A stretch of DNA of 64,000 nt. Source: SAR92 clade bacterium H231. GTDB taxonomy: Bacteria; Pseudomonadota; Gammaproteobacteria; Pseudomonadales; Porticoccaceae. Position numbers and translations under genes: made by a program. Numbering within the stretch: the stretch's first letter is position 1; each line of letters opens with the position of its first letter. A model generated the notes under the pieces. It had not been told where the DNA came from. It worked only from the letters and a program-made list of their open reading frames with translations, and searched no databases. This document shows, one piece after another, positions 42,384 to 60,299 of the stretch. The stretch covers positions 124,001-188,000 of the forward strand of contig JAOALC010000004.1 in assembly GCA_025153775.1 (NCBI GenBank). The letters are read 5' to 3'.

Positions 42384-42432
42384 ATTTATGGCCTCGGACA
42401 CTCTTGCCAAAGAAGCTCTGCGAACATCGTTA

Positions 42433-44292
42433 TTATAGCCTTACTTCAATAAACACAGTGTGGTATCCCGTAGCCTGCCCATCGTTGACGTTGAGACGCA
42501 ACCTATAAGTTCCGGGCTTTTCAAATGTTATCTCTGTTGCCAGAGCGGTTGGATTTGAAAAGCGCACAGTGCTGGCATCGCCAAACGGGTAATTGACATT
42601 TTTTCCATCTGCATCTTCTCCCATGGAGACGGCTTCTGCATCAGCAGGCACAGCCTCCCACTGGAAAGTCATTGGGTCATTCTCTGCATCCAATACATCC
42701 CCTGAAAAACTTATGCTATTTCCATGGGATAGACTTAGTATCTTCTCCTCTCCGGCATACACATCAGGGGGGGTATTGGTCAATTGTGGAATAAGGATAG
42801 AGTTCTTCCCTCCGTCAACAAGTGCCTCCAATGGGGAATTATCGACAGTCACATTGCGGAAATACATCGTATCAAAATCTACAAAATTAAATGCATTGGG
42901 GTTTTCCCCTGCGCTCAAATGTACGTTATCGAACACAAAGTCTTTTAAAGGTATTTTATCGGTTCCCTGTAAGATCATAGGATTGATGGAGGTACCACCA
43001 ATGAAGTTCTCAAGCCGGATATCTTTAAATTCTGGATCGCGATTATATTTTACCCCGGTGCTATCGTAATTTGTTGTTACTTCAATCATTGATAATTTAC
43101 GGCGGTTTTCGGGAACATCTGCAAGATCACCATAGGTCAGATTGCGCATCCTAATATGTTCAAAATGACTACCCCTATTTTTGTTCGCCTTGAAATAGAA
43201 TCCCTTTCGCAAACCCGTTCCCTCTGAATTTTCGATAAATATATTGCGAACTCCACCAGATGCCTCGCTTCCTAGTGCAATTGTATCGTCAGCCAGAAAA
43301 CGTACATTTTGTACAACAATATTTTTGCTTGGAATCATCTTTTGCAGCCCTTCTAAATCGCGCCCCGACTTAATTGATATACAATCGTCACCCGTCGCAA
43401 AATCAACATTATGGATATACACATCCTGACTGGATTCAATATCGATACCGTCGTTATTTTTGTTGAGCGAATTCATCGTCATATTTCGTACGGTTATATT
43501 TTTAGACATGTAAAAATGATTTACCCAAAACGGGGAATCAATAATATTCACTCCTTCTAAGAGTATGTTCTCACTATCATAAAAAAGTATGAACGCAGTT
43601 CGCAGGTTTCCAGCCCGGTCAAACCTACGTTTAAATAAGGGTACGTTATCGTTATTCATATCCCGAACAACCTTCTCCCATTCGCCTTTCACAGAACCAG
43701 GCACGCGCTTAAGGTCCTCTTGGGATGCTTTATCTACCCAAGTTGACCAGCTGTTTTCTGCCTGTCCGTTAAGTGTCCCTTTACCAGTGATTGCAATGTT
43801 TTTCTTTTGGTAAGCATAGATAAGAGGCGAAAAGTTATAGACATCGGTTCCCTCATAGCGACTAAGCACCTGAGGCAGGTAGCTCTCATAATTACTGCTG
43901 AAGAGTAACTCTGATCCTTCCTGCAAATGTAAATTGACATTGTTTTCTAAATTTAGAGGTCCATCAACATAATACTCGCCTCTGGGGATGCTGACTGTCC
44001 CTCCGCCAAATCGAGATACATCAATAATAGCGTTTTGAATGGCTTGTCGCGCATCGGTTGAGCCATCTGCTATGGCATTATAAGGCGCATCGGTAATAAT
44101 TAATGTTCGATTTGGAAAGCTGGGCGCCTTAATACGCGACAAAATAACCGGCACCTGAGCCCATGAACCACGATAGTTAGAATCGCTATCACCTACAGTC
44201 TTTTTTTTGACTTCAGTTGACGGATCCGCACACCCAGCTACCATCACCGACAAGACAATAAGGGCTAGTGTATATTTAAGTTTACTGAACAT
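42433..44292 (-). CDS. GH28 polygalacturonase-like surface lipoprotein
   Basis: A 619-residue lipoprotein (lipobox VAGC, Cys21). A right-handed beta-helix spans about 60-500. GH28 catalytic motifs: NNDG at 279-282 (Asp281), GDD at 301-303, GSEASGG at 341-347 in place of GHG, and FYFKANKNRG at 365-374, where the usual Arg of RIK is replaced by an aromatic residue. An Ig/PKD-like C-domain (about 505-619) follows. It probably releases galacturonate or unsaturated uronates from a pectin-like polymer, likely exo-acting. Neighbours uxaC and kdgK support uronate use. Confidence 0.88.
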   Translation of the reverse strand: MFSKLKYTLALIVLSVMVAGCADPSTEVKKKTVGDSDSNYRGSWAQVPVILSRIKAPSFPNRTLIITDAPYNAIADGSTDARQAIQNAIIDVSRFGGGTVSIPRGEYYVDGPLNLENNVNLHLQEGSELLFSSNYESYLPQVLSRYEGTDVYNFSPLIYAYQKKNIAITGKGTLNGQAENSWSTWVDKASQEDLKRVPGSVKGEWEKVVRDMNNDNVPLFKRRFDRAGNLRTAFILFYDSENILLEGVNIIDSPFWVNHFYMSKNITVRNMTMNSLNKNNDGIDIESSQDVYIHNVDFATGDDCISIKSGRDLEGLQKMIPSKNIVVQNVRFLADDTIALGSEASGGVRNIFIENSEGTGLRKGFYFKANKNRGSHFEHIRMRNLTYGDLADVPENRRKLSMIEVTTNYDSTGVKYNRDPEFKDIRLENFIGGTSINPMILQGTDKIPLKDFVFDNVHLSAGENPNAFNFVDFDTMYFRNVTVDNSPLEALVDGGKNSILIPQLTNTPPDVYAGEEKILSLSHGNSISFSGDVLDAENDPMTFQWEAVPADAEAVSMGEDADGKNVNYPFGDASTVRFSNPTALATEITFEKPGTYRLRLNVNDGQATGYHTVFIEVRL

Positions 44293-44369
44293 AATTTATC
44301 CTTTATTGATAGGTAGGCTTGTAACCTGTATACGTTAGAGTTGATGCACAGTCATTGAGACATCTTTCT

Positions 44370-45806
44370 CTATGTATCATTGCCTATTCGATAAGCTTGT
44401 TTAGATAGGTTGTAGGTTAAATCTTTTGCAATCTCCAGGGCATCATTCTCTGATAACCTATGTTCGCAAACTAGGCCTGCCAGATAAGCGCAATCGACGC
44501 GGCGAGACATATCATGCCTGGCAGGAATACTCAGTAATGCCCGAGTATCGTCATTAAAACCGACAGTATTGTAAAATCCTGCAGTTTCCGTGGTCTGTTC
44601 GCGGAATCTCATAATGCCTGCAGGGCTGTCATTAAACCACCATGCAGGACCCAGTCGGAGACAAGGATAGTGTCCGGCGAGTGGAGCCAGTTCTCGCGAA
44701 TAATTAGTTTCATCAAGGGTAAATAGTATGAGATTGAGATCAGAATTATTCCCAAAGCAATCCAGCAAAGGTTTTAGCGCAGTCGTATACTCCACTTGTA
44801 TGGGTATATCTGCTCCTTTATCACTGCCATAATTCTGAAACATCCATTCGTTATGGTTGCGATAAGAGCCTACATGAATTTGCATAACTAATTTATCGTC
44901 AAGACTCATCCGCGCCATCTCAGTTAGCATCTGCGCTCTGAACAACTCGGCATCTTCTCGGCTGACTTTACCCGCCATGATGCGGTCAAATAGCCTTTCG
45001 CAGTTAGCAGTAGAAAGATTGGCAGTTCTTGGCGTGGGGTGTCCATGGTCGCTGCTTGTGGCGCCCATAGCAATAAAGTCAGCGCGCCTGTTTCTATGTG
45101 CCTGCAAATAACCTTGCCATGAATGAATATCTTGGCCTGTCATTTCGCCAAACAGCCTTAGTGACTTCATGAAATCTGTGTGCTCTGGGTCAATCACAGA
45201 GTCTGGTCGGTAAGTTGTAACAACCTTCCCGTTCCAATCACTGTCTTTTAATATCTGATGATACTTTAAGTTATCGACAGCGGATTCAGTGGTCGATAAA
45301 AACTCGATATTGAATCGATCAAAAATTTGGCGGGGACGAGATTCTTCTTTTTGGAGTTGTTCTGAAATACTATCAAAATAATCATCCGCCGTAGTCTCAT
45401 TGAGCTCTTTAGACTGCTTAAAAAAATCGGCAAATGTCTGATTTAGCCATAATGCAGAAGGGGTCCCACGAAAAAGATAATAGTTCTTGGCGAATAACCT
45501 CCACGCAGTACGTGGATCGTTAACGCTTTCCTCATTGTTGGCATTATTTTTGGACCTAATTCCTAATTCAGAGAGGCGAATACCCTGACTATATAGCATG
45601 CGCAATAAATAGTGGTCTGGCGCTATTAACAATTTAGTGGGGTCGGTAAAACAGTTGTTTTCGGCAAACCATGAAGGGTCTGTATGTCCGTGAGGGCTGA
45701 TAATCGGCAGATCTTTCACTTCGAGATAAAGTCTTCGAGCCATTGAGCGAGCGCTGGGGTTACCAGGTAATAGTCTATCGGGATGATTGTTAATGGGGTC
45801 TGCCAT
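44370..45806 (-). CDS. uxaC: Uronate isomerase
   Basis: A 478-residue enzyme of the UxaC family. It has LPIISPHGHTDPSWFAEN near the N-terminus (metal-binding HGH), IEFLSTTESAVDNL, ATSSDHGHPTP, and MQIHVGSYRNHN. It converts D-galacturonate to tagaturonate or D-glucuronate to fructuronate. The oxidoreductase and dehydratase that normally follow (UxaB/UxuB, UxaA/UxuA) are not in this window. Its upstream region carries a sigma-70 promoter overlapped by the operator palindrome. Confidence 0.95.
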   Translation of the reverse strand: MADPINNHPDRLLPGNPSARSMARRLYLEVKDLPIISPHGHTDPSWFAENNCFTDPTKLLIAPDHYLLRMLYSQGIRLSELGIRSKNNANNEESVNDPRTAWRLFAKNYYLFRGTPSALWLNQTFADFFKQSKELNETTADDYFDSISEQLQKEESRPRQIFDRFNIEFLSTTESAVDNLKYHQILKDSDWNGKVVTTYRPDSVIDPEHTDFMKSLRLFGEMTGQDIHSWQGYLQAHRNRRADFIAMGATSSDHGHPTPRTANLSTANCERLFDRIMAGKVSREDAELFRAQMLTEMARMSLDDKLVMQIHVGSYRNHNEWMFQNYGSDKGADIPIQVEYTTALKPLLDCFGNNSDLNLILFTLDETNYSRELAPLAGHYPCLRLGPAWWFNDSPAGIMRFREQTTETAGFYNTVGFNDDTRALLSIPARHDMSRRVDCAYLAGLVCEHRLSENDALEIAKDLTYNLSKQAYRIGNDT

Positions 45807-45825
45807 TCTGGGAGTCTCTATCTCC

Positions 45826-45858
45826 AGTGCGGAGACATAAAAGTAAGTAATTTGGTGT
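45826..45858 (-). repeat. uxaC leader segment duplicated in inverted orientation
   Basis: This 33-base stretch of the uxaC 5' leader is repeated exactly, as its reverse complement, at 50461-50493 next to the broken oxidoreductase. Confidence 0.93.
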
Positions 45859-45859
45859 T

Positions 45860-45888
45860 ATGATACCGGTGTCAATTACTGTTGTCAA
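45860..45888 (-). promoter_or_regulatory. uxaC promoter with overlapping LacI-type operator
   Basis: On the minus strand TTGACA (45883-45888) and TATCAT (45860-45865) are 17 bases apart. The palindrome TGACACCGGTATCA (45861-45874) covers the -10 box and part of the spacer. The central CpG dyad is typical of LacI-family operators. The site lies between the LacI gene and uxaC, so binding would block RNA polymerase. Confidence 0.75.
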
Positions 45889-45908
45889 ACGTGCAGAAGT
45901 AAGCTTTG

Positions 45909-46982
45909 CTATCCGCGGAGTATTGGTGGTGGTGCTGTTGTCTCACGCCGCACTAACGTGGGAACAAGCTCAGATTTAATTGTCTTGGCGAGTCCAATAT
46001 TATTATTGCATAACGCAAGTAACTTAAGTGTTGCAAGCTTACCCATCTCTTTCACCTTCAGATTCACAGTGGTTAATGCAGGCCAAACTTTGGAAGCCTG
46101 CGGCGTATCATCAAACCCAATAATTGTTAGCTCGCTGGGTATGTCAATCCCCATTTTCTGGGCGGTAACCATGACACCAATAGCCATCTCGTCATTACTG
46201 GCAAAAATAGCGGTAGGAGGATTGTCTGACTTTAATAGTTGCACGGCACAATCAACACCTGATTGAAAAGTATTGGCTCCAAAAACAATTTGGTTAGCCC
46301 CAAGGTGAACACCATTTTGCTCAAGCGCATCACGAAAAACATCGTGACGCTCAGCAGAAGATTTAGAGTTGTCGGGTCCTTTAATAAAACCAATATCTCT
46401 ATGACCTAGCGCTATTAAATGTTCTGCTATGTCTTTAACGGCTTCACGATCATTGAAGTGGACCATGTGTGCGACATCATCAGAAATAACCGACACTAGC
46501 CGCACATAATTACACTTAATAGCTTTCAGCTTATTAATTAAATCATTAGATTCGGAGAGTGGTGGCAGCAAGATAACCCCGTCAATTTTTGTACGCCTGA
46601 TGAACTTAATAATGTCATCATGCAGACTGGCTTGGGTTGCGTCACAGGGATGAACAACCAGTTCATAGCCATTAGGCCGACACTGACCCAATGCACCATA
46701 CATAGCGTCTGTAATAAATGATGCATTGGGGTTGTCATAGATCATTGCTAGTAAGAAGGAGCGGCTAAACGCTAATCCTCTTGCCTGAGGGTTAGGAGAG
46801 TAATCTAGATCTTCAATGACTTTTTTGACTTTACTTAATGTTTTGGCGCCAACATTAGGTTCACTATTTATCACCCGGGAGACAGTTTTCTTTGATACTC
46901 CCGCGAGCCGCGCCACATCACTGATTGTGGGCTTTTTACCAACAATCGATCCTTCGATGATATTCTCTTTTATAGAATCCAT
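45909..46982 (-). CDS. LacI family transcriptional regulator of the uronate locus
   Basis: A 357-residue repressor. The HTH is PTISDVARLAGVSKKTVSRVINSEPNVGAKTLSKV with the hinge helix NPQARGLAFSRS. The periplasmic-binding-protein-like effector domain (about 75-345) has DGVILLPPL, DIGFIKGP and FASNDEMAIGVM. It is flanked by two copies of the ACCGGT-type palindrome, one before uxaC and one before the divergent DUF1080 gene. It is therefore the likely regulator of both arms. The inducer is presumably an uronate or KDG-related intermediate; this is inference. Confidence 0.9.
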   Translation of the reverse strand: MDSIKENIIEGSIVGKKPTISDVARLAGVSKKTVSRVINSEPNVGAKTLSKVKKVIEDLDYSPNPQARGLAFSRSFLLAMIYDNPNASFITDAMYGALGQCRPNGYELVVHPCDATQASLHDDIIKFIRRTKIDGVILLPPLSESNDLINKLKAIKCNYVRLVSVISDDVAHMVHFNDREAVKDIAEHLIALGHRDIGFIKGPDNSKSSAERHDVFRDALEQNGVHLGANQIVFGANTFQSGVDCAVQLLKSDNPPTAIFASNDEMAIGVMVTAQKMGIDIPSELTIIGFDDTPQASKVWPALTTVNLKVKEMGKLATLKLLALCNNNIGLAKTIKSELVPTLVRRETTAPPPILRG

Positions 46983-47271
46983 TTTCAGTTAGCCCCAACA
47001 TACTAAATTAAAATTCAACCTGCCTATTTTTAACCCAAGGCGGTAGATAAAGCGGTCCAGATTTAGTTCTGATCTGAGAGGGTAATCAGTCTCGGCAACT
47101 AATGATTCTAACCGATTTTAGCTTGGAAAAATACAGATCTTTAGCCATAAATGCCCCGCTAGACGTTTGTTTTTTAGCCTGAGAACATATACCCTACCAC
47201 CTAACTGATAGCGGTGTCATTATAATCGATAACGCCAAGGCGGCTACTAATGCAATTCTTAGGAGGATTTT
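46983..47271. other. Divergent regulatory region between the LacI gene and DUF1080 gene
   Basis: About 290 bases holding promoters for both genes. The only recognised sites are the operator-like palindrome at 47206-47219 and the -10 box at 47221-47226, near the DUF1080 side. Confidence 0.55.
47206..47226 (+). promoter_or_regulatory. DUF1080 operon promoter and operator
   Basis: TGATAGCGGTGTCA (47206-47219) matches the uxaC palindrome at 13 of 14 positions in the orientation TGATACCGGTGTCA. It is followed at once by TATAAT (47221-47226). The -35 box is weak. The AGGAGG ribosome site of the first gene lies about 40 bases downstream. Confidence 0.65.
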
Positions 47272-48720
47272 GTGTATAAAAATATATCCCAGCGCCTAAT
47301 TTGTTTTTTGTTACCTATCTTCTTTTTATCAGCATGCTCTGTAGACAAAAAGCCTGACTATGAAAATTCAAATTCAGAGTGGAAATACCTATTTGATGGG
47401 TCTTCTCTCGATGGTTGGCACCAGCTTGGAAGCAATGCCCAGTATTATGCAGAAAATGGTGTGATTGTCGGGACCGCAAAAGCCGGGAATACCGATAGCT
47501 TGCTGACTACGCTCAAAACATACAATGATTTTATTCTGGAGTTTGACGTCAAGGTTGATCCGGGCGTGAATTCTGGGATGCAGTTTCGAAGCCAAAGCCG
47601 AGACGGTGATGAGCGCGCGTATGGATATCAACTCAAGATTGATGGTAGTTCGCGTCACTGGAGCGGAGGAATCTTTGATGAAAGGCGCAGGCAATGGCTG
47701 TATAACCTATCGCGTAATTCTCGGGCGCGCTCCGCCTTTAATTTGTCAACTTGGAACCATATGAGAATTGAGGTTATTGGAGCGTCGATACGATCTTGGG
47801 TCAATGGTATTCCAGCAGCTGATTTGATCGATGACTCGAATCTAGGCGGCTTTATCGGACTTCAAGCACCATCCATTAGCCATGATTCTAGTAAAGCAGG
47901 ATTACAAGTTCGTTGGAAAAATATTCGTATTAAAACAGATGACCTAAATAGTTTTAAAACGCCTGAAAATAATGATATCGATCAATTTAGTTCTTTAAAA
48001 AATGAACTCTCACCACGCGAAATTAGAGAAGGTTGGGAGCTTCTTTGGGATGGTAAAACTACCGCGGGTTGGAAAAGCGCAAAGAGAAGCGGATTTCCTG
48101 AGAAAGGATGGAATATAAAGGATGGTGTGCTGAGTGTTTTGTCGTCGGGAGGCGCAGAAGCGCGTAATGGTGGTGACATTATTACGACTAGAGAATTTAG
48201 TAACTTCGAACTGGAGTTGGATTTCAGATTTACACCAGGAGCTAACAGTGGAATCAAATACTTCGTGGATCCGGATCTACTAAAAGGGAAAGGCTCCGCG
48301 ATTGGTTTGGAGTTTCAAATTCTAGATGATGAGACGCACCCAGATGCAAAAAGAGGGATTTCTGGAAATCGAACTATTGGATCACTTTACGACTTAATCA
48401 CTGCGGTTAATCAAAGTGAGCCGCCAAATTCTCCGAAACGAGTCCACCCACCAGGACAGTGGAATCGGGCACGCATAGTTGTTCAGGAGGACTATGTTGA
48501 GCATTGGTTAAACAATATTCTCGTCGTCAAATATTACCGCGGAACGCAAATGTTTAGAGCGCTTGTTGCTTATAGTAAATACGCTAAATGGCCAAATTTT
48601 GGAGAGTGGGAAAAAGGACCGATTCTGCTTCAGGATCATGGTGATTTAGTATCATTCCGTTCGATTAAAATTAGAGACTTGACGTTGAATAAAGGGCACC
48701 GATATGAAAATGGAACGTAG
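47272..48720 (+). CDS. Double DUF1080 (3-keto-glycoside hydrolase-like) lipoprotein
   Basis: A 482-residue lipoprotein (lipobox LSAC, Cys22) starting with GTG at 47272 behind a perfect AGGAGG. Two DUF1080 beta-sandwich domains follow: about 35-225 (WKYLFDGSSLDGWHQLG, FDVKVDPGVNSGMQFRSQ) and about 250-475 (WELLWDGKTTAGWKSAK, LDFRFTPGANSGIKYFVD, HPPGQWNRARIVV). Recent work on the family assigns hydrolysis or lyase action on 3-keto-glycosides. It heads the rightward operon and overlaps the next gene, a Tat-exported oxidoreductase that could supply 3-keto sugars. Confidence 0.85.
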   Translation: MYKNISQRLICFLLPIFFLSACSVDKKPDYENSNSEWKYLFDGSSLDGWHQLGSNAQYYAENGVIVGTAKAGNTDSLLTTLKTYNDFILEFDVKVDPGVNSGMQFRSQSRDGDERAYGYQLKIDGSSRHWSGGIFDERRRQWLYNLSRNSRARSAFNLSTWNHMRIEVIGASIRSWVNGIPAADLIDDSNLGGFIGLQAPSISHDSSKAGLQVRWKNIRIKTDDLNSFKTPENNDIDQFSSLKNELSPREIREGWELLWDGKTTAGWKSAKRSGFPEKGWNIKDGVLSVLSSGGAEARNGGDIITTREFSNFELELDFRFTPGANSGIKYFVDPDLLKGKGSAIGLEFQILDDETHPDAKRGISGNRTIGSLYDLITAVNQSEPPNSPKRVHPPGQWNRARIVVQEDYVEHWLNNILVVKYYRGTQMFRALVAYSKYAKWPNFGEWEKGPILLQDHGDLVSFRSIKIRDLTLNKGHRYENGT

Positions 48721-50026
48721 AAAGTTTATTGGCCTTTCCGCTGCCACATTTGGTGCACTTGCATTTTCAGCTAGCAGCTATGCTCGTATCCTAGGCGCAA
48801 ATGACCGAATCAATGTTGGTTTTATGGGAACGAAAAGCCGCGGAATGGGTTTACTCGGCTCATTTGCAAAAATGCAGGGGGTAAATCTCACTCATAACTG
48901 TGATGTTGACAGTCGCGTCCTTGAGAAAACTCACAATGCCATTATCAAAGCGGGCTTTGAGCCCCCAAAATCTGATAAAGACATCCGCAAAATTTTGGAG
49001 GACCCTACCCTAGATGCTCTGGTAATAGCAGCTCCTGACCACTGGCATGCAACTGCAGGTGTTATGGCATTAGAGGCGGGCAAGCATGTCTATGTTGAAA
49101 AACCTTTAAGCCATAATCCACATGAGGGTGAAATCTTCATTGCCGCGCAAAATAAATATAAAAAAATCGTCCAGATGGGTAATCAACAACGTTCATCAGT
49201 AGAAAGTATTGAACTCATGATGCTTATTGAGGAAGGTTTACTGGGAAATATTTATAGAGCGGAGACTTGGTACGGAAACGACCGTGGTTCAATCGGAAAT
49301 GGTAATTTGGCATCACCCCCCAGTTGGTTAGATTGGAATCTTTGGCAAGGGCCGGCACCCCGGCGCCCGTATAAAGACATTTATGTCCATTATAATTGGC
49401 ATTGGTTTTGGCATTGGGGCACTGGCGAAATATGTAACAATGCCGCTCATGAACTTGACATTGCACGCTGGGCTATGGGGTTAGACGTTCCAGAAAAAGT
49501 CTCTGTAACCGCAGGTCGAAACTTTCATACAACCGATGATTGGGAAATGTATGACACCATGGAAGTACGTTATGATTTTCCGGGTGATAAAACCATAGAA
49601 TGGGTCGGCAACAGCTGTAACAAAGTAAATCGTTTTGGTCGTGGGAGAGGCACGCTCCTACTCGGCACAAACGGACATGCTATTGTTGATCGTTCTGGTT
49701 ATGAAATTTATAGTACTGATGGAACCTTACTGCGCGAAAGAAAGGCGCAGAACCGTTCTGTGAATACCAATGATCTTGTTGGTGCAGGTGCCTTGACAGA
49801 GGCACATGTCAATAATTTTCTCGAATCGATTAGGGGTGTAGCAAAACAGCAACACTCGCCTATAGCCGATGGACATTCAAGCACACTACTCTGCCACTTA
49901 GGTAATATCGCTTATCGCGTTGGTGAAGATATTTATTGTGATTCGAGTAATGGCAGGGTTAAAGGAGCAGACGCGAACCGATTTTGGCAACGTGAGTTTC
50001 AAGATGGGTGGAATTTGTCCATGTAG
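48704..50026 (+). CDS. Tat-exported Gfo/Idh/MocA family oxidoreductase
   Basis: A 440-residue protein with a twin-arginine signal (ERRKFIGLSAA, cleavage near SSYA). The NAD(P)-binding Rossmann fold begins INVGFMGTKSRGMGLLG; EKPLSHNPHEGE carries the conserved Lys, and CNNAAHELDIARWAMG the catalytic His region. Tat export of a cofactor-loaded enzyme points to periplasmic sugar oxidation, as in glucose-fructose oxidoreductase-like proteins. It overlaps the DUF1080 gene by 17 bases. The last 14 codons lie inside the left copy of the 477-bp repeat. Confidence 0.88.
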   Translation: MKMERRKFIGLSAATFGALAFSASSYARILGANDRINVGFMGTKSRGMGLLGSFAKMQGVNLTHNCDVDSRVLEKTHNAIIKAGFEPPKSDKDIRKILEDPTLDALVIAAPDHWHATAGVMALEAGKHVYVEKPLSHNPHEGEIFIAAQNKYKKIVQMGNQQRSSVESIELMMLIEEGLLGNIYRAETWYGNDRGSIGNGNLASPPSWLDWNLWQGPAPRRPYKDIYVHYNWHWFWHWGTGEICNNAAHELDIARWAMGLDVPEKVSVTAGRNFHTTDDWEMYDTMEVRYDFPGDKTIEWVGNSCNKVNRFGRGRGTLLLGTNGHAIVDRSGYEIYSTDGTLLRERKAQNRSVNTNDLVGAGALTEAHVNNFLESIRGVAKQQHSPIADGHSSTLLCHLGNIAYRVGEDIYCDSSNGRVKGADANRFWQREFQDGWNLSM

Positions 50027-50459
50027 TCACACCCCGCTGAGTGGTTAATTAATTTGATACCGCAATGAGGCCAGGAATGCGAAACACATCAGGCAGATCA
50101 ACAATTAGTTTATTAACCGAGCGTATCTTATGACCGTGCGTCTTGGGATTATTTGCGTTGGTAATATTGGCTTACAACACGCCAATAATATCTTATCCGG
50201 CGTTATTCAAGGGGGCATTATTACAGCGGTAAGCGCGCGTGGCTCGTGCTCCTTGGCTGAACAATTCAATATCCCACAGTATTCAAACTATAAAAAATTA
50301 ATCGACAAACAGGTATGCGATGCAGTTATCGTAGCCACGCCGACATGTTCTCATCTTGAAATTGGCTGCTATGCACTTAGCCGAGGCTTACATGTACTGA
50401 TGGAAAAGCCGATAGGCCTATCTGTTGCTGAGGGTGAGAGAATGCTTGAGTTGGTTCAG
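49983..50459 (+). repeat. 477-bp direct repeat, left copy
   Basis: It aligns without gaps to 52975-53451 (constant offset 2992) with about 17 mismatches counted by eye. It carries the end of the Tat oxidoreductase gene, the intergenic gap and the first ~110 codons of the next oxidoreductase. Confidence 0.95.
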
Positions 50460-50522
50460 TACACCAAATTACTTACTTTTATGTCTCCGCACTTGACAAC
50501 AGGAATTGACAACATCAATTGA
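50130..50522 (+). pseudogene. Truncated Gfo/Idh/MocA oxidoreductase
   Basis: The first 110 codons repeat those of the intact gene at 53122. The frame then runs into foreign sequence and stops after 20 unrelated residues. The nucleotide-binding motif is damaged: the first glycine of GVGNIG is cysteine (CVGNIG), from a single G-to-T change. The catalytic domain is absent. After a 94-base insert, 29 bases of the same gene reappear at 50554-50582 (26 identical), so the break is a mosaic. No function is expected. Confidence 0.9.
50461..50493 (+). repeat. Inverted copy of the uxaC leader
   Basis: An exact 33-base reverse-complement match to 45826-45858. It begins two bases after the left 477-bp repeat ends and directly precedes a second uxaC-type promoter. 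Confidence 0.93.
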
Positions 50523-50534
50523 CACCGGTATCAT
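50506..50534 (+). promoter_or_regulatory. Second uxaC-type promoter with operator
   Basis: TTGACA (50506-50511) and TATCAT (50529-50534) are 17 bases apart and overlap the palindrome TGACACCGGTATCA (50520-50533). The 17-mer ATTGACACCGGTATCAT is identical to that of the uxaC promoter. It points toward the CoA-transferase and lyase genes. Confidence 0.75.
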
Positions 50535-50588
50535 GCTATTCAAGTATTCAATTTAATGTTAAATCAACTAGCAGATCCCGTTGGGTAA

Positions 50589-50714
50589 CATCCTCCTTAC
50601 GATGTTTGGTGTACGGCAGATGAAGATCATATTTTATTGAAGGCCAGTGCTGGAGGATATATGCAGACGCATTATGAGCTAACAGAAGTAATTCGAGATG
50701 AGGTTGGCGAATGA
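50589..50714 (+). pseudogene. 3' remnant of an unknown gene upstream of the CoA-transferase
   Basis: An open stretch of 41 codons (from HPPYDVWCTADEDH to VIRDEVGE) has no start and ends in a TGA overlapping the CoA-transferase ATG as ATGA. Such coupling is what an operon partner would leave behind. The junction with oxidoreductase sequence is at about 50582. I do not recognise the family. Confidence 0.55.
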
Positions 50715-51910
50715 CTCAGCCACTAACGGGCTTAAGGATACTTGATTTAACCCATATGTTGTCCGGCCCCTATGGCGGAATGATCCTGGCTGATCTTGGT
50801 GCTGAAACGATTAAAATCGAACCATTACAGGGAGAGGGAACACGCAAGCTCTTGGCGACGGATCCTAATAATTCGTTGAATGGAATGGGCGCTTACTACC
50901 TCACTTTAAATCGAAATAAAAAGAGTGTTTTGATTAATCTTAAAACTGAGCAAGGACTCGAAGTTTTTAAGGACTTGGTCGCCAAAGCAGATATTGTAAT
51001 TAGCAATTTTGGCGCGGGGGTGCCTGAGCGCTTAGGGATTGACTATAAATCTCTCTATAAAGTCAATTCTCGAATTATCACCTGCACCGTTTCAGGTTTC
51101 GGATCTGACGGTCCAGGGAGTAAACGGCCTGCTTTTGATCAAGTGGCGCAAGCCATGGGTGGAGGCATGTCCATCACTGGCGCCGATGCCACATATCCGA
51201 TGCGAGCGGGAATACCTATCGGCGATCTCGGGGGTGGTATGTTTGGCGTTATGGGAATTTTGGCGGCACTTTATGAACGCGAGCGCAGTGGCGTTGGCCA
51301 GCATGTGGATATTTCTATGCTTGATTGCCAAATTTCGATGCTCAACTACATGGCAACGATGTATTTTCTCTCAGGAGAAGATCCATATCCCATTGGTAAC
51401 AGTCATTTCGTCCATGTGCCTTACAATACCTTTAGTTGTTCCGACGGTAGCATCGTCATCGCTGTTCTTACGGATAATTTTTGGCAAAATCTGAAAGAGG
51501 TGGTGGACTGCCCTGCTTTTGATAATACTAAGTACGACACTCAGCCTGGTCGTTGGGAAGACAGAGATATGATAAACAGCACCCTAAATGATTTTCTGAG
51601 TACTAATACTTGCCGGTATTGGCTAACGAAGCTTGAGTCTAAGAGGGTACCTTGCGCTCCCGTTAATAGCCTGAGTCAGGCGCTATCAGATGAGCAGGTT
51701 CTTCATCGCAACATGATTGTAGATCTAAAGCACCCTGATGGTAGTAAAACCAAAGGTCCGGGAAACCCCATTAAACTGTCAAGGACTGATGATAAAATGT
51801 TTACACCAGCGCCTACTTTGGGGCAACATACCGACGAGGTGATGACGGATTTGCTAGGGTTTAGTGCGGAAAAAATTGCGGGATTAAAAAAACAGGGATT
51901 CATAAAGTGA
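50711..51910 (+). CDS. CaiB/BaiF family (class III) CoA-transferase
   Basis: A 399-residue enzyme. It begins LTGLRILDLTHMLSGPYGGMILADLGAETIKIEPLQGEGTRK. The catalytic Asp is expected in GIPIGDLGGGMFGVMGILAALYERE (about residue 170). It moves CoA between carboxylic acids. It is coupled to the lyase downstream (TGATG overlap), suggesting activation of a branched dicarboxylic acid followed by retro-aldol cleavage. The donor and acceptor are unknown. It lies in the cassette between the 477-bp repeats. Confidence 0.92.
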   Translation: MTQPLTGLRILDLTHMLSGPYGGMILADLGAETIKIEPLQGEGTRKLLATDPNNSLNGMGAYYLTLNRNKKSVLINLKTEQGLEVFKDLVAKADIVISNFGAGVPERLGIDYKSLYKVNSRIITCTVSGFGSDGPGSKRPAFDQVAQAMGGGMSITGADATYPMRAGIPIGDLGGGMFGVMGILAALYERERSGVGQHVDISMLDCQISMLNYMATMYFLSGEDPYPIGNSHFVHVPYNTFSCSDGSIVIAVLTDNFWQNLKEVVDCPAFDNTKYDTQPGRWEDRDMINSTLNDFLSTNTCRYWLTKLESKRVPCAPVNSLSQALSDEQVLHRNMIVDLKHPDGSKTKGPGNPIKLSRTDDKMFTPAPTLGQHTDEVMTDLLGFSAEKIAGLKKQGFIK

Positions 51911-52821
51911 TGACAAACGATATAGTGATCACTGATGTTGGGCCTCGAGATGGTCTTCAGAATCAACCTAAAATACTTACAGTTGAGCAGCGGGTTCAGT
52001 TAGTGAAAGCTATAGCCAAGGCCTATGTGCCAAAAATTGAGGTAGGTAGTTTTGTTTCGCCTAATGCTGTGCCTGCTATGGCTGATACCGATCAGGTATT
52101 AAGGGCATTAGCTAGTGAGCCTGATTTTATCACTCCATGTCTTTCGTTGATTCCCAACATGAAGGGCTATGAATTCGCCCGAGACGCCGGCGCTAAAACT
52201 GTTGCCATGGTTCTTTATGCTAGTAATGGAATGGCACAAAAAAATGCATCTATGTCTATGGCTGACGCAGAGGAAGTCACCCTTAATATCCTCCGCTTGG
52301 CCAAACTCGATGGAATAGAGGTCATTGCTACTGTTGCAGTAGCGTTTGAGTGTCCATTTGATGGGCCAAGCGATCCGGCCGTTGTTCAAGCTATAGTGGC
52401 AAAATTCCTCCAGGCCGGAGCGAATCACGTTGTGCTAGCAGACACCATTGGTGCAGCTCATCCTCAGCAGGTGCGCGATATGACGGCGACATTGGTCCAA
52501 AGTCATGGTGCCGAGCAGTTAGGCTGTCATTTTCATGATACTAGAGCGATGGGGCTAGCTAATGTTTACGCAGCTGTGGAGTCTGGTATAAGGCGTTTTG
52601 ATACTTCAATTGCTGGATTAGGCGGTTGCCCATTTGCACCTGGAGCAACAGGGAATGTTGCCACTGAAGATGTTGTTATGATGTTAGAGCAGATGGGTTT
52701 TGATACGGGCATTGATCTGACGCTTTTATTGCAGGCGTCCGATATTGCACAGGACTTAACCGGCGCTTTATCAGGAGGAAGATCGAAGACTTGGCTAATG
52801 GGTCATTTACTTAAACAGTAG
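51910..52821 (+). CDS. HMG-CoA lyase family protein
   Basis: A 303-residue TIM-barrel lyase from the ATG at 51910; a GTG lies one codon upstream. It has VGPRDGLQNQPKIL, DTIGAAHPQQV, CHFHDTRAMGLANVYAA (metal His) and the signature GLGGCPFAPGATGNVATED with the catalytic Cys. The family cleaves 3-hydroxy-3-methylglutaryl-CoA or related citramalyl-like CoA esters. With the CoA-transferase it forms a two-step module. The next gene, a hydantoinase, is cut after 32 codons. Confidence 0.92.
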   Translation: MTNDIVITDVGPRDGLQNQPKILTVEQRVQLVKAIAKAYVPKIEVGSFVSPNAVPAMADTDQVLRALASEPDFITPCLSLIPNMKGYEFARDAGAKTVAMVLYASNGMAQKNASMSMADAEEVTLNILRLAKLDGIEVIATVAVAFECPFDGPSDPAVVQAIVAKFLQAGANHVVLADTIGAAHPQQVRDMTATLVQSHGAEQLGCHFHDTRAMGLANVYAAVESGIRRFDTSIAGLGGCPFAPGATGNVATEDVVMMLEQMGFDTGIDLTLLLQASDIAQDLTGALSGGRSKTWLMGHLLKQ

Positions 52822-52888
52822 TGAAGAGCAGTAGAAGAATAGAGGAAATAATAACTTATTTAACTACGGCCATATTTCGGAGACAAAA

Positions 52889-52987
52889 ATGAGCTACAGG
52901 CTGGGCGTAGACGTGGGGGGTACATTTACAGATCTTCTGCTAATTAATGAAAATACTGGTGAGAAGCATACCGCTTTGGCAATGTGA
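52889..52987 (+). pseudogene. 5' fragment of a hydantoinase/oxoprolinase subunit A gene
   Basis: It starts with ATG behind a GGAGA. The first 30 residues (SYRLGVDVGGTFTDLLLINE, then NTGEKHTA) are the ATP-binding N-terminus of HyuA-type proteins, which normally have about 690 residues. The frame then enters the right 477-bp repeat and stops at TGA 52985-52987. The rest of the gene is missing from the window. Confidence 0.85.
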
Positions 52988-53451
52988 GTTTCAAGATGGG
53001 TGGAATTTGTCCATGTAGTCACACCCCGCTGAGTGGTTAATTAATTTGATACCGCAATGAGGCCAGGAATGCGAAACACATCAGGCAGATCAACAATTAG
53101 TTTGTTAACCGAGCGTATCTTATGACAGTGCGTCTTGGGATTATTGGCGTTGGTAATATTGGCTTACAACATGCCAATAATATCTTATCCGGCGTTATTC
53201 AAGGGGGCATTATTACAGCGGTAAGCGCGCGTGGCTCGTGCTCCTTAGCTGAACAATTCAATATCCCACAGTATTCAAACTATAAAGAATTAATCGACAA
53301 ACAGGTATGCGATGCAGTTATCGTAGCCACGCCCACGTACTCTCATCTTGAAATTGGCTGCTATGCACTTAGCCGAGGCTTACATGTTCTAATGGAAAAG
53401 CCTATAGGTCTATCTGTTGCTGAGGGTGAGCAAATGCTTGAGTTGGTTCAG
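52975..53451 (+). repeat. 477-bp direct repeat, right copy
   Basis: A gap-free match to 49983-50459. Here the oxidoreductase start continues into a full-length gene, so this is the copy with an intact downstream side. Its left end carries the orphan last codons of the Tat oxidoreductase. Confidence 0.95.
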
Positions 53452-54264
53452 CCTAAGCAAGTCTTCGGTCTAATGTTAAATCAACGAACAGATCCCGTTT
53501 TTGTCGCGATGAAAAAAAAGGTGGATGAGAATCTCCTTGGCTCTTTACAAAGAATAAACTGGACTATGACCAATTGGTTCAGACCAGAAATCTACTTTCA
53601 GACCAGCAATTGGCGCGCGACTTGGGCGGGTGAAGGCGGAGGTTTGTTGGTTAATCAGTGCATTCATAACCTTGATATATTGCAATGGATTTGTGGGATG
53701 CCGAGGTCAATTCAAGGTTTTTGTGGATTTGGCAAGTATCATAATATCGAGGTGGAAGACGAGGCTACTGCTTTTTTTGAGTATGAAAATGGCGCTACTG
53801 GATCTTTTATCGGCTCAACTGGGGAATCTCCGGGGGTCAATCGGTTTGACATTATCGGTGATCGAGGGATGATTAGCTATGACGGAGAGAAGCTGCTACA
53901 TTTTGAGAATCGCCCCTCAACCTCGCAGTTTAGTCAGACAACCTCAGAGATGTTTGGACAACCAGAAGTTTGCATTACAGACTTATCGGTTCGCTCTCCC
54001 ATTAATCAGCACGCCACCATTCTTCAGAATTTCATTAACGCTATATCGTCTAACGAAAGCTTGATAGGGCCCGCAGAGGAAGGTTTAAAAGCATTGGCCA
54101 TTGCAAATGCTATTCTCCTGTCAGCATGGGATCGTGAGCAGATTCAGATGCCGTTGGACAGCGCACGATTTCATAAGACCCTAAATGAGCGCCGATCTCA
54201 AAGTCGATTGCGAGCGGCTTCCGAAGCAGAAGTTAATATTGATATGGAGGCGTCATTTCGATGA
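53122..54264 (+). CDS. Gfo/Idh/MocA family oxidoreductase (intact copy)
   Basis: A 380-residue cytoplasmic NAD(P)-dependent dehydrogenase. LGIIGVGNIGLQHANNI is the nucleotide motif, LMEKPIGLSVAEGEQ holds the conserved Lys, and GGGLLVNQCIHNLDILQWICGMP the catalytic His region. There is no signal peptide. Related enzymes oxidise inositols, sugars or uronates. Its stop overlaps the next start as ATGA, coupling it to the Nramp-like transporter. Presumably it once directly followed the Tat oxidoreductase, before the cassette arrived. Confidence 0.9.
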   Translation: MTVRLGIIGVGNIGLQHANNILSGVIQGGIITAVSARGSCSLAEQFNIPQYSNYKELIDKQVCDAVIVATPTYSHLEIGCYALSRGLHVLMEKPIGLSVAEGEQMLELVQPKQVFGLMLNQRTDPVFVAMKKKVDENLLGSLQRINWTMTNWFRPEIYFQTSNWRATWAGEGGGLLVNQCIHNLDILQWICGMPRSIQGFCGFGKYHNIEVEDEATAFFEYENGATGSFIGSTGESPGVNRFDIIGDRGMISYDGEKLLHFENRPSTSQFSQTTSEMFGQPEVCITDLSVRSPINQHATILQNFINAISSNESLIGPAEEGLKALAIANAILLSAWDREQIQMPLDSARFHKTLNERRSQSRLRAASEAEVNIDMEASFR

Positions 54265-55613
54265 ATGAGTCACGTTTACTAAAAGCTGCGGCAACAAGAC
54301 CTCTATTGTTGCGCCTCCCAATTTATCTTCGGCTAAGTGGTCCTGGGTGGTTACAGGGAGCGATGACTCTTGGAGGCGGTAGTCTAGTAACTTCTGTGAT
54401 GATTGGAGCTGTTTATGGCTATGAGCTACTGTGGTTACAGCCGTTGGCTATGCTTATAGGGTGCATCATGCTATTCGCATTGTCTCATCAAACCTTAAGT
54501 ACAGGCCAAAAACCTTATCAGGCCATGCGTAACCATGTTCATCCTAGGTTAGCTTGGGCTTGGGCGTGGGCAGCCTTGTTATCGAGTGTTATTTGGGGGT
54601 TTTCTCATTATCCTCTAGGCGCAGGAATGCTTGAGGAAATCATTGCTGTAAGTACTAGCTTTAGTCTAATAGAGAAAGGTGGTTTGCTGCGCGATATGTA
54701 CCTGCTTTTGTTAGGTATATTAATTTGGATGTCTTGCGCTTACATGGCTTGGAATTACGGTAGGGGTGGACGGTATGTGGCACTCTTTGAAAATCTTATA
54801 AAAATTCTCAGCGGCATGATTATTGTCAGCTTCTTATGGGTTGTACTTTCTGCTGCGACAAATGGTCAGATCGAATGGTCCTCCGTATTAGCAGGCTATA
54901 TTCCAAGATCTGTACCCTCTGATGTTGGAGGCATAACTATTATCATGGCAGCTTTGGGTACTGCTATAGGCATAAATATGACATTTGTCTATGGCTATAC
55001 ATTGCTTGATCGACAGTGGGGTCGGGAGCATCGAGAATTAGCTCAGTTCGACATTGTGCTTGGCCTTGTGCTTCCCTACATTGTCATTACTAGTTTGATT
55101 TCTATTGCCGCCGCCAGTGCACTTCATGACACCGGTTTGGAAATCGCGGGCAAACTTGAGCCACGAAAAGTAGGAGAAATGTTTGTCAGTGCAGGGCTTG
55201 GTGAAATTACCGGTAAACTAATATTCTTTTGCGGTGTGCTTGGCATGGTTATTGGGTCACTTGTGATGCATATGCTATGTTGTGGTGCCGCCGCCGCTGC
55301 TATTTTTGGGTGGAGCCATGACTCACGTAACTATAGATTAGCACTACTCATACCAACACCAGCGGTTCTTGGAGTCTTTGTCTGGTCAACCTTAGGCGCA
55401 TACGTAGTAATACCTGTTGCCGCAATATGCGGGGCCCTATTGCCAATAGCCTATATCGGCTGGTTGATCCTGAATAATCGCAGCGATTACTTACAGGCAG
55501 ATACACCGGTAGGTGGTAAAGCGTTTTTTTATAATGTCTGCATGGGACTTTGTATTTTAGTGGTGATGGTGAGCTTAACTTATTCAACTGCCGTTAAATT
55601 AGGGTTGGTGTAG
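54261..55613 (+). CDS. Nramp-fold transporter lacking metal-binding motifs
   Basis: A 450-residue membrane protein with about 11 hydrophobic helices. The first helix, LSGPGWLQGAMTLGGGSLVTS, aligns with the Nramp GPGFL...DPGN helix but has GGGS in place of DPGN. The sixth-helix region (TAIGINMTFVYGYTLL) lacks the MPH metal ligands. Transport of Mn2+ or Fe2+ is therefore doubtful. It is coupled to one Gfo/Idh/MocA gene and followed 8 bases later by another, so a sugar or sugar-acid substrate is my inference. Mg2+-type Nramp relatives are the alternative. Confidence 0.78.
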   Translation: MNESRLLKAAATRPLLLRLPIYLRLSGPGWLQGAMTLGGGSLVTSVMIGAVYGYELLWLQPLAMLIGCIMLFALSHQTLSTGQKPYQAMRNHVHPRLAWAWAWAALLSSVIWGFSHYPLGAGMLEEIIAVSTSFSLIEKGGLLRDMYLLLLGILIWMSCAYMAWNYGRGGRYVALFENLIKILSGMIIVSFLWVVLSAATNGQIEWSSVLAGYIPRSVPSDVGGITIIMAALGTAIGINMTFVYGYTLLDRQWGREHRELAQFDIVLGLVLPYIVITSLISIAAASALHDTGLEIAGKLEPRKVGEMFVSAGLGEITGKLIFFCGVLGMVIGSLVMHMLCCGAAAAAIFGWSHDSRNYRLALLIPTPAVLGVFVWSTLGAYVVIPVAAICGALLPIAYIGWLILNNRSDYLQADTPVGGKAFFYNVCMGLCILVVMVSLTYSTAVKLGLV

Positions 55614-55620
55614 AATAAAA

Positions 55621-56700
55621 ATGGGATCCATTAAAGATGGAGCAAACTATGCACCTAGCTCAAAAGTAGCACCTGTCATAGGCCGTGGTGAATTTCAGTA
55701 TGCGGCGGCATTTCTTGATCATGGTCATATTATTGGTCAATGCAATGGGCTGAGAGATGCAGGCGCTACTTTAAAGTGGGTCTATGATCCCGATCCTGAG
55801 CGCGTCGCAAGATTTTGTTTGAAATTCCCGTTAGTTCAGGTAGCTAAAAGTTTCGATGAGATTCTACAAGACCCATTAGTCCAATTAGTTACTTCTGCAG
55901 CAGTCCCTAATCAACGGGCCGCTATAGGCTGCCAGGTCATGAAGTCAGGTAAACATTACTTTACTGACAAATCTCCATTTACATCGCTAAGACAGTTAGA
56001 AGAAGTGAGAAAGGTAATTTTGGCTACGGGCCGAAAGTATATGGTTTATTACGCCGAACGACTCCATAACGATGCTGCCTGGATTGCTGGGGATTTAATT
56101 GGCGAGGGAGCTATTGGTAAAGTGCTCCAAGTAGTGAATCTTGCGCCCCATCGCTTAGCACAAGAGACTCGCCCAAGTTGGTTTATGGACAAGTCTTGCT
56201 ATGGAGGTATTTTGACTGATATTGGTTCTCATCAAGTAGAGCAGTTTCTCTCCTATGCGAACTGTTCTGATGCAACTATAAATTTCGCCCGAGCAGAAAA
56301 CATATATCATCAAGATAGTCCTGGCTTGCAGGATTTTGGTGAGTTATCGATGATAGGCTCTAACGGCGCTTCGTTTTATACTCGCGTTGACTGGTTTTCA
56401 CCTGAGGGTCTAAGGACATGGGGTGATGGTCGTACTTTTGTTCTTGGTACGAATGGTACTATTGAGATAAGAAAATATATTGACATCGCGCGTGAAGCAC
56501 CAGCATCAAAATTATTCATAGCTAATGCTGATGGTGAACAGGAAATAGATTGCCTAGGTCGGAGCGGATTCCCGTTTTTTGGAAAATTCATTCTTGATTG
56601 TGCCAATGGAACCGAACTCGCTATGACTCAGGCTCATGCACTAAAAGCAGCAGAGCTAAGCATGCGAGCCCAAGATTTGGCTGACTATCAGCCAAAATAG
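55621..56700 (+). CDS. Gfo/Idh/MocA family oxidoreductase
   Basis: A 359-residue protein with a Rossmann N-half and the family C-domain. It shows LKWVYDPDPERVARFCLKFP, HYFTDKSPFTSLRQLEE in place of the usual EKP, and CYGGILTDIGSHQVEQFLSYA with the catalytic His. The first 30 residues are less typical: AAFLDHGHIIGQCNGLRDAG substitutes for the glycine motif. This resembles the planctomycete-type subgroup. It is the last gene of the rightward operon. Substrate unknown. Confidence 0.85.
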   Translation: MGSIKDGANYAPSSKVAPVIGRGEFQYAAAFLDHGHIIGQCNGLRDAGATLKWVYDPDPERVARFCLKFPLVQVAKSFDEILQDPLVQLVTSAAVPNQRAAIGCQVMKSGKHYFTDKSPFTSLRQLEEVRKVILATGRKYMVYYAERLHNDAAWIAGDLIGEGAIGKVLQVVNLAPHRLAQETRPSWFMDKSCYGGILTDIGSHQVEQFLSYANCSDATINFARAENIYHQDSPGLQDFGELSMIGSNGASFYTRVDWFSPEGLRTWGDGRTFVLGTNGTIEIRKYIDIAREAPASKLFIANADGEQEIDCLGRSGFPFFGKFILDCANGTELAMTQAHALKAAELSMRAQDLADYQPK

Positions 56701-56853
56701 AGTCGCGATTCACTTAATACTTACTCACTAGTCGCCGATAATATTGCTGACGTACCCTGTATGTAGCAGTATATTCAACTCTGTCACTGCATCGACATAA
56801 TTAGTGTTATCAGCAACATTGGTACTGTCATCGCCATAGCCCAACAGATGCTC

Positions 56854-58491
56854 CTAGCCTCCAGCACTTTTCATGGGTAGATCAGCCCACCAATCTTTGT
56901 ACAACAAATCTAGCTGTTTAATGACATGGAGCATTTCATCAGCCAAATTATGGGTCTCTGTCTTATCAACCGACATGTCATAGAGCTCCCAGTCCCCGCT
57001 GCCACCGATCTTATCGGAATTTGACGAGACGATTTTCCAGTTGCCACTCCGAGCTGCCCTACCTGTTCGCCATTCCCAAAAGAGAGGATCGGCACGGACC
57101 GAGTCATAACCTCGGAATACGGGCAACAAACTTTGCCCTTCATAATAAGGAATCGCTCGACCATTGTAGGACTTCGGATAAGTCGCAGATGAGATGTCAA
57201 CAATCGTCGCCATGACATCAATAAAGTGTCCGACGAAGCCCGTGATACGCCCACCCTCTTTAATTACAGCGGGCCAATGCACTATTAGTGGCGTATTGAT
57301 GCCCCCTTGATAGCTATGGCCCTTGAAATACCTGAAGGCTGTATTGCTAACATTGGCCCAATTCGGCCCAAGTGATGCCCACCGACTCATCCCACCTATT
57401 TCACCATCCCCTAACTCAACAACGGCTGCCGAGCTTCCATTGTCGGACGCAAATAAAATCAGCGTGTTGCCCAGCTCTCCAGATTCCGATAGCTGTTCAA
57501 TTAAACGCCCAATATTTTGATCTATTCGGTCGATCATCGCCGCATACACAGACATTTTTTGGTCTTCTATATCTTTTTCGTCGGGGGATAAATGGTCCCA
57601 GTTATCATGAATTGGCTCCGGTCGTGGACATGAGTCATTAATTAGGCCCATCATTTTTTGCTTGTTGTATCTCTTTACAGCGATGGCTCTGTAGCCTGCT
57701 TCGCTATATTGACCTCGATATTTGGCTATGTCTTCAGGCCACGCTTGCAAGGGATCATGCGGCGCTTGATAGGACACATAAAGGAAAAAAGGTTTACGCT
57801 CATCCTTGTACTCAACCAAATACTCGAGTGCTTTATCTGTGTATGTGTCAGTACTGTAAAAGTTTGCAGCCAGTGGCGTGTAAGGTTGCATGCTTTCACT
57901 GTCGAAACACCAATATCGTCGACCCGGCTTTTTTTGGGCCGGCGCAGCCTCTCCCAATCTCTGATGGCCCGGATTAAAGTGGTTTTTTGCACCATCACGT
58001 AAGCCAAAATATCGATCAAAGCCACGGTCATAAGGGTTATCCAATCCATGGTACTTGCCAACCATCAGCGTTCTATAACCGGCGGATTTCAGTACCTCAG
58101 CGAGAGTTACCGAATTTTCGAGATAGGCTTCAGCTGTGGTGCTCATGCCCACCTGTTGCGCGTAGAGTCCAGTAAGTAACGAGGCCCTAGACGGGCCGCA
58201 CTTACTTGTATTATGAAATTGCGTGAATCTAAGTCCTTGCATAGCAAGAAGATGTAAGTTGGGTGTTTGTACCTCACCACCGTAATGGGCGATATCAGAC
58301 CATCCCAAGTCATCGGCTAGGATCAGAACAATATTTGGTTATTCAGGTCTGGTATTTACAGCATTAAAAACAAAGGAAGTATCAGACGCCCTAATCGCAA
58401 GAACCAATAGCGATATGACCACCAACAAGCATAATAATCTATACCTGACTTTAGATCGGGTTGGGGCTTTGCACTCTTTTACTTCTTTCAT
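56854..58491 (-). pseudogene. Secreted sulfatase interrupted by an in-frame stop
   Basis: The full frame would start at ATG 58491: a basic N-terminus, a hydrophobic signal segment (LLCLLVVISLLVLAI), then FNAVNTRPE. A TAA follows at 58339-58341, and the same frame then continues PNIVLILADDLGWSDIAHYGG. The FGly motif CGPSRASLLTG is intact. The part after the stop (484 codons from the ATG at 58308) would lack both metal-binding Asp of ADDLG and the signal. The expected role is removal of sulfate esters from a polysaccharide. It is a pseudogene unless the stop is an error or is read through. Confidence 0.85.
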
Positions 58492-58776
58492 ATGGCTGTT
58501 GACCCCACCATTTCCGAAGTTGGTTTAATACTATTTGGTGACTGCCGACATTACTTATAACCAAACGATGACGCTAAATTTTCCAAACGAAAATACGTAC
58601 CGTTTTAAGTTATCCTGTGCCAATGTTTACGCCCGCATACTTAACTCCGCCATTTTGAGTGCATGTGCCTGAGTCATCGCCAATTCACTTTTAGAGACCA
58701 ATTAGTAAAATGTCGAATCAGTGCTCATCGGGCAATCTCTTTCGCAAGCACTTTTAAGGACAGATTCTACTACCTG
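58492..58776. other. Intergenic region between the PhoD-like and sulfatase genes
   Basis: About 285 AT-rich bases. I see no copy of the ACCGGT-type operator, no hairpin terminator and no credible gene. Confidence 0.4.
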
Positions 58777-60177: not shown

Positions 60178-60299
60178 TGTAATTCTCCCAGAGATTTTTA
60201 AATATTGTACTGACGCGGTCAATTTTTTTGTATTCTGTAGAAATAATATGGTTTTACGGTTTGCTCTGTTAAAGACACACTTGAAATTCTGGTATTAAT

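Follow-up and report, generated by a model that had tools for sequence, protein, structure and literature searches.

A transferred CoA-transferase/lyase operon fragment, likely joined with target duplication and local promoter capture, in a SAR92 clade bacterium

Introduction

In the available text of PMC11111574, in which Li and Bock 2019 is cited, foreign genes were activated in selection experiments by promoter capture via illegitimate tandem duplication. Foreign DNA flanked by repeats of its target, with no transposase, is described in the available part of PMC3240628 as a product of single crossover and of homology-facilitated illegitimate recombination, and a tandem duplication accompanying DNA uptake is reported, in the accessible portion of PMC3784515, for merodiploids formed in Streptococcus pneumoniae transformation. 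Here we describe a locus that can be compared with each of these. It lies in a 64,000-nucleotide stretch (the window) of the genome of SAR92 clade bacterium H231 (assembly GCA_025153775.1, contig JAOALC010000004.1, positions 124,001 to 188,000), where a cassette with a family III CoA-transferase gene and a gene for a protein resembling 3-hydroxy-3-methylglutaryl-CoA (HMG-CoA) lyase stands between two copies of a segment of an oxidoreductase operon. We consider it likely that a fragment of a transferred operon was joined here with an approximately 600-bp target duplication and with capture of a local promoter.

As in the experiments of PMC11111574, so far as its available text goes, foreign genes would gain a resident promoter with a duplication, no transposase or long homology being needed; in contrast to those experiments, the present case is a natural one, with a promoter that is a separate copy in permuted order and includes the operator-like word of a regulator. 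Compared with the part of PMC3240628 at hand, the mechanism is here deduced from the product only, and there is an extra promoter insert. The pneumococcal merodiploids of PMC3784515, in the portion accessible, span about 100–900 kb and arise by pairing of chromosomal repeats (IS861 remnants in the first case), whereas the duplication here is 0.6 kb. A literature search by topic, covering sources available in part, found nothing on this locus. While PMC11111574, as available, concerns laboratory selection, the donor-type operon, the empty site, the promoter source and the loss of the resident operon are all readable here from the sequence, and the order of events and the natural rewiring of regulation are therefore testable. 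The locus is a case from nature in which a foreign gene pair seems to have come under a local control circuit. Beyond a preliminary description of this DNA, which had reported the repeat and the cassette, we note here the promoter insert, a further stretch of repeat and the host's loss of its own operon.

The repeat pair and the severed cassette

We refer to the window's own genome as G000; other G labels denote genomes and L labels the loci compared. Pairwise alignment of 49983–50459 with 52975–53451 is ungapped, with 17 mismatches in 477 positions (460/477 identical), precisely the figure that had been estimated by eye. While these coordinates and the identity stand, the length of 477 bp does not: after 50460, copy 1 is broken by an insert of about 75 bp, beyond which homology to ox2, a Gfo/Idh/MocA oxidoreductase gene, resumes at about 50536–50582 (39/47 positions). 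The duplicated segment is therefore approximately 600 bp long and extends from the last 44 bp of the upstream oxidoreductase gene ox1 across the intergenic space to codon ~126 of ox2. Copy 1 (49983–50582, plus strand) is split by the insert and contains a truncated ox2 open reading frame (ORF) of 130 aa (50130–50522, plus strand), in which the first Gly of GxGxxG, which we take to be the motif at this place, has become Cys; copy 2 (52975–53499, plus strand) has the same ox1 tail, intergenic and ox2 5' parts. Apart from a tandem repeat of 405-bp period inside one gene (8170–9279), no other direct repeat was found in the window (seed 14, minimum 70 bp).

The cassette (50583 to about 52974) holds only part of a CoA-transferase/HMG-CoA-lyase/HyuA/HyuB operon; the break on the left falls inside a gene that we call X and that on the right inside hyuA. 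An intact version, as anticipated in the preliminary description, is found in G007 in the order X (243 aa), CoA-transferase, lyase, HyuA (691 aa) and HyuB (627 aa), and with its parts split over two contigs in G016; DNA similarity of the window to the G007 operon starts at 50589 and ends at 52959. The severed genes expected on either side are the last ~41 codons of X (50583–50714, plus strand; 81% to residues 202–243 of the G007 protein) and the first ~28–30 codons of hyuA, native within a 32-aa ORF (52889–52987, plus strand; 87% to HyuA 1–30). The X protein of G007 has no match in Pfam or NCBIfam at E 0.001, and among the loci compared, several with short flanks, X is present only in G007 and G016. 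No further X or HyuA matches were found in G000, where HyuB was not searched for. The X remnant has an in-frame stop (TAA, 50586–50588), followed by GGAGG (50652–50656) ahead of an ATG at 50661, which may permit initiation coupled to the CoA-transferase. Between the remnants lie the two complete genes, encoding the CoA-transferase (50711–51910, plus strand; PF02515) and the lyase-like protein (51907–52821, plus strand).

Insertion by a transposon or insertion sequence was rejected. Searches of Pfam or NCBIfam with 13 of the 20 ORFs of 100 aa or more at 44–60 kb show no transposase, the other seven, unscanned, overlapping these genes; there are no inverted repeats of at least 40 bp in 46000–58000, and of 11 short inverted pairs (12–21 nt) in 50440–53020 none has arms of at least 12 nt at 50583 and 52974.

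The empty site in relatives

The genome contigs were scanned with ox2, and the best 80 of 85 relatives were taken as loci; three of those listed are close, with protein identities of 78–92%. L071 (NZVE01000014.1) is about 89% identical to window positions 41437–50457 and 52966–62599 (18.7 kb), with ox2 and the transporter gene coming immediately after ox1. L070 (PBZS01000072.1) is likewise cassette-free, with 90% identity to the right of the site and 79% to the left. These two have the simple oxidoreductase-oxidoreductase-transporter operon that had been predicted for a site lacking the cassette, and the segment that is single there is the one that flanks the cassette as a direct repeat in the window. 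L072 (NYXU01000017.1, titled Porticoccaceae), arranged as G048:C58, also lacks the cassette, and its ox1 and ox2 are separated by a sulfatase gene; the window homologue of that gene is at 56854–58308 on the opposite strand. Among 50 genomes of the genus, G000 included, ox1/ox2/transporter matches occur only in G000 and G048, and the cassette is at this place only in G000, while 28 other genomes of the genus have cassette matches elsewhere.

The L071 record is titled Rhodobacteraceae, yet it is ~89% identical to and syntenic with the island, and the genus's other carrier is titled Porticoccaceae; it is possibly mislabelled. In L070, identity to the window jumps within ox1, near window-equivalent position 49372, from 78% to 96%. 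This looks like a recombination breakpoint; the locus is a mosaic of lineages.

Foreign origin and absence of the resident operon

In a phylogeny built from 22 CoA-transferase plus lyase proteins, G000 falls with G007 and the second G016 copy (100/100), and constraining G000 to group with G013, G028, G011 and G021 is rejected (p-AU 4e-25). The argS tree (18 rows), by contrast, places G000 with G013 (97/96) and rejects its grouping with G007 and G016 (p-AU 4e-81). DNA identities follow the same division: in argS, G013 is nearest to G000 at 86%, against 72% for G016 and 70% for G007, whereas the cassette is closest to G007 and G016 (76%), with 71% for G013. As the two trees disagree and vertical placement is rejected, the cassette is, judged by these phylogenies, foreign and horizontally acquired. 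Relocation of a resident operon within the genome is ruled out by the same pair of trees.

The donor-type operon is near-identical in G007 (L025, G007:C51) and G016 (L027/L028), X and the compared part of HyuA being 100% identical, though argS sets these genomes apart; the operon has therefore moved recently. In G007, a resolvase-family gene (L025:1120–1701) lies ~4 kb from it. A donor on a sequenced plasmid or phage was considered and rejected: matches occur in 13 plasmid records, of which none covers 80% of the cassette and the best no more than 18%, and 11 phage records match the CoA-transferase, each below 60% protein identity (the lyase was not searched there).

Relatives also have a resident version of the operon. 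In G013, G028, G011, G016 and G044 it adjoins acyl-CoA dehydrogenase and GntR-family regulator genes (families as identified in the G013 proteins). Two stretches that lie 10.3 kb from each other in G013 (positions 4524 and 14817) have their matches just 175 bp apart on contig 1 of G000 (G000:C1:352655–352831, L166), from which it follows that about 10.3 kb including the resident operon is missing. Loss in G000 seems the simpler reading because G028, which lies outside the G000–G013 pair in the argS tree, also has the operon.

A permuted copy of a local promoter

The insert that splits copy 1 (50461–50535, plus strand; ends approximate) aligns as a permuted copy of the promoter of uxaC, the uronate isomerase gene 4.6 kb away, with the downstream part first and the promoter/operator part second. 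It matches the minus strand upstream of uxaC at 35/36 positions to 45823–45858 and 27/29 to 45860–45888, in swapped order. The uxaC promoter itself (45860–45888, minus strand) is TTGACA-17-TATCAT, an 11/12 match, with a LacI-type operator-like word at 45861–45874, and its layout is conserved in L071 and L072. In the insert, the same promoter-like arrangement (50506–50534, plus strand) includes TGACACCGGTATCA at 50520–50533, points into the cassette and has, at 11/12 to the sigma-70 consensus, the top score in the scanned region.

In the window, TGACACCGGTATCA occurs at three distinct places (five strand-wise matches at up to two mismatches, 0.19 expected). Across the genome it is exact at three, namely the insert, uxaC and upstream of a TRAP DctP gene, and has one mismatch at two more, one of them at window position 47206 before the operon of ox1. 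The sequence GGT-TCA is shared at both insert ends and GCAC inside. The first part of the insert, so close to the G000 uxaC promoter, matches that of L071 at 22/28 and that of L072 hardly at all, which suggests that it was copied within this lineage.

With a resident-type promoter sequence upstream of foreign genes and in sense orientation, promoter capture is the best reading of these alignments, the orphan pair being now behind a local promoter. We infer that the promoter is active and that the cassette is under the uronate LacI regulator.

Constraint and likely chemistry

At polarized sites, with five outgroups, the ratio of nonsynonymous to synonymous change is 0.31–0.40 for the window CoA-transferase and 0.48–0.61 for the lyase, as against 0.38–0.43 and 0.68–0.88 on the G007 branch; protein branch lengths are equal (0.14 and 0.14). 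These values, similar to those of the G007 branch, show that the two genes are not long-dead, which does not imply that they work at present.

Against PDB sequences, the CoA-transferase is closest to a formyl-CoA transferase (10uh, E 4e-75), followed by a succinate-hydroxymethylglutarate CoA-transferase (9br6, E 3e-73). It falls short of the threshold of each of the seven NCBIfam models that it matches, including the SUGCT-type equivalog (NF052585, 293.2 bits versus 750). The lyase-like protein aligns with HMG-CoA lyases and exceeds the cut-off of the HMG-CoA lyase model NF004283 (303.5 versus 246 bits). Succinate-hydroxymethylglutarate CoA-transferase and HMG-CoA lyase are thus sequence relatives of the two enzymes, the first of which differs from its relative in falling under every model cut-off and in having a formyl-CoA transferase as its best solved match. 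The pairing of a CoA-transferase with a lyase points to a pathway that would break down a free hydroxy-dicarboxylic acid, the presumed substrate, in two steps.

Proposed history and points against it

On our hypothesis, a piece of a G007/G016-type operon, consisting of the end of X, the CoA-transferase and lyase genes and the start of hyuA, would have entered a uronate/glycoside-utilization island, where it would have been joined at two points inside genes, so that ~600 bp of target sequence now flanks it in duplicate. Copy 2 has retained an intact ox2, and copy 1 is a truncated fragment into which the nearby uxaC promoter and its LacI-type operator would have been copied, reading toward the cassette. 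The two complete genes probably act as a two-step module under the uronate LacI regulator, first attaching CoA to free 3-hydroxy-3-methylglutarate, or to an acid like it, and then cleaving the ester to acetyl-CoA and a keto acid.

Several points weigh against target duplication with promoter capture of a working module. The repeat-cassette arrangement occurs in one genome only, and the host's position rests on one core gene, argS. The nearest donor-type DNA is 76% identical, and with the exact donor missing, microhomology at the junctions is unreadable. A HyuA match lies downstream of the lyase in 21/21 other lyase-bearing places examined (G007, examined twice, is counted once; G016:C34, whose contig ends inside the CoA-transferase, is left out; and the second G021 copy shows only 26 HyuA residues before its contig end), and since the pair is never without HyuA in these places, it may be a non-working remnant here. 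The measured constraint says nothing on current function, because the branches include time before the insertion. Promoter-like sites in the region number 8 versus 6.5 expected, so that the case for the promoter rests on its score and shared origin rather than on site count. The reversed TGACACCGGTATCA gives two matches at up to one mismatch, compared with five for the word itself. Finally, the operator part of the insert is nearly as close to the L072 promoter as to that of G000 (scores 47 and 48), and therefore only the first part points to this lineage.

Routes of joining

The fragment may have been joined by single crossover after circularization, by replication template switching or by homology-facilitated illegitimate recombination, all of which give the same product. 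Single-crossover integration of a donor was the route put forward in the preliminary description; the empty site, the flanking repeats and the foreign cassette agree with it, but it is now one of three such routes, with no donor among the 13 matching plasmid records. In its present form, which we think somewhat less likely than not, a circular molecule with a homologous segment and the cassette, for example a linear fragment circularized by end joining, would have undergone one Campbell-type crossover, the junction of hyuA with the ox1 tail being the circularization joint. A repeat-cassette-repeat in an otherwise intact operon is the exact product of this event, an empty site exists, and the available part of PMC3240628 reports that in E. 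coli linear DNA can be circularized by ligation and then undergo single crossover. However, the route requires a donor with a pre-existing fusion of ox2 to X, and none is present among the matches in 94 genomes, nor does any plasmid record reach 80% of the cassette, though such a donor may exist beyond these collections. Moreover, across the 477 bp L070 matches copy 1 at 456 positions and copy 2 at 449, and L071 matches them at 408 and 404, which singles out neither copy as imported. The L070-like patch was dropped as proof of import, since both copies have it.

Template switching, which strikes us as somewhat unlikely, would have had the replication fork leave ox2, copy the foreign fragment and return 0.6 kb upstream, with the promoter insert as a further switch. 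It would account for the permuted order and partial re-copying of the promoter in the insert, for the short sequences shared at the insert's ends and inside it, and for seven copy-1-specific changes within the 47 bp beside the insert. Yet the foreign template must have been available inside the cell, the insert may have arisen separately and later, and sequences so short may be shared by chance. An extended version, in our estimation improbable, has one serial template-switching episode join the foreign two-gene fragment, the target duplication and the permuted promoter into a ready-regulated transcription unit replacing the lost resident operon and moving its chemistry from the resident setting, with a GntR-family regulator gene beside the operon, to uronate control.

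We regard homology-facilitated illegitimate recombination as rather unlikely. One arm of the incoming DNA would have paired with ox1/ox2 and its other end joined illegitimately upstream, producing the duplication. The process is known in three naturally competent species (PMC3240628, available part), the genome encodes a ComEC-family protein, and the locus recombines between lineages; however, the ComEC-family model also matches 10/14 control genomes, which makes it weak evidence of competence, and here too a pre-fused donor arm is needed. An assembly artefact fusing two organisms or strains is very improbable, for although repeats of 477 bp can mislead assemblers, both cassette junctions are at unique sequence, the promoter insert is inside copy 1, and the assembly has 7 contigs with 97.79% completeness and 0.11% contamination.

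Whichever route joined the fragment in the proposed duplication and promoter capture, the divergence of the copies had been taken to mean that the event is not brand new. That argument is weak: two alleles could already have differed before joining, and so divergence alone gives no date. Dating from it was not used, and a mismatch-free run of 120 bp in the repeat is not significant (P = 0.11). In ox2, 13 of the first 110 codons differ between the copies, so the counts that follow are small. Copy 2 departs from relatives or is odder at eight (six synonymous) and copy 1 departs at three, one synonymous and the other two being the lost first GxGxxG glycine and E56 to K; at the remaining 2/13, both synonymous, the direction is unclear.

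Genes of the surrounding island

On the minus strand, uxaC, encoding uronate (glucuronate) isomerase (44370–45806; PF02614, and NF002794 over cut-off), supplies the source of the insert, and a LacI-family regulator gene (45909–46982; PF00356, PF13377) encodes the probable, predicted reader of the operator. On the plus strand, ox1 (48704–50026) and the intact ox2 (53122–54264), both assigned by family match to Gfo/Idh/MocA oxidoreductases, are followed by a gene for an Nramp-family transporter (54261–55613; PF01566) and by the operon's third oxidoreductase gene, ox3 (55621–56700), which matches NCBIfam oxidoreductase models below cut-off only. An Nramp-family transporter thus sits inside a sugar oxidoreductase operon, and the ox2-transporter-ox3 trio is kept in L073, L074 and L076 (loci of Paraglaciecola, Catenovulum and a metagenome-assembled genome). 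Farther away, the gene with the 405-bp-period repeat (8167–10467), which is without a Pfam match, has three repeat units 405 bp apart with identities of 100, 81 and 73%.

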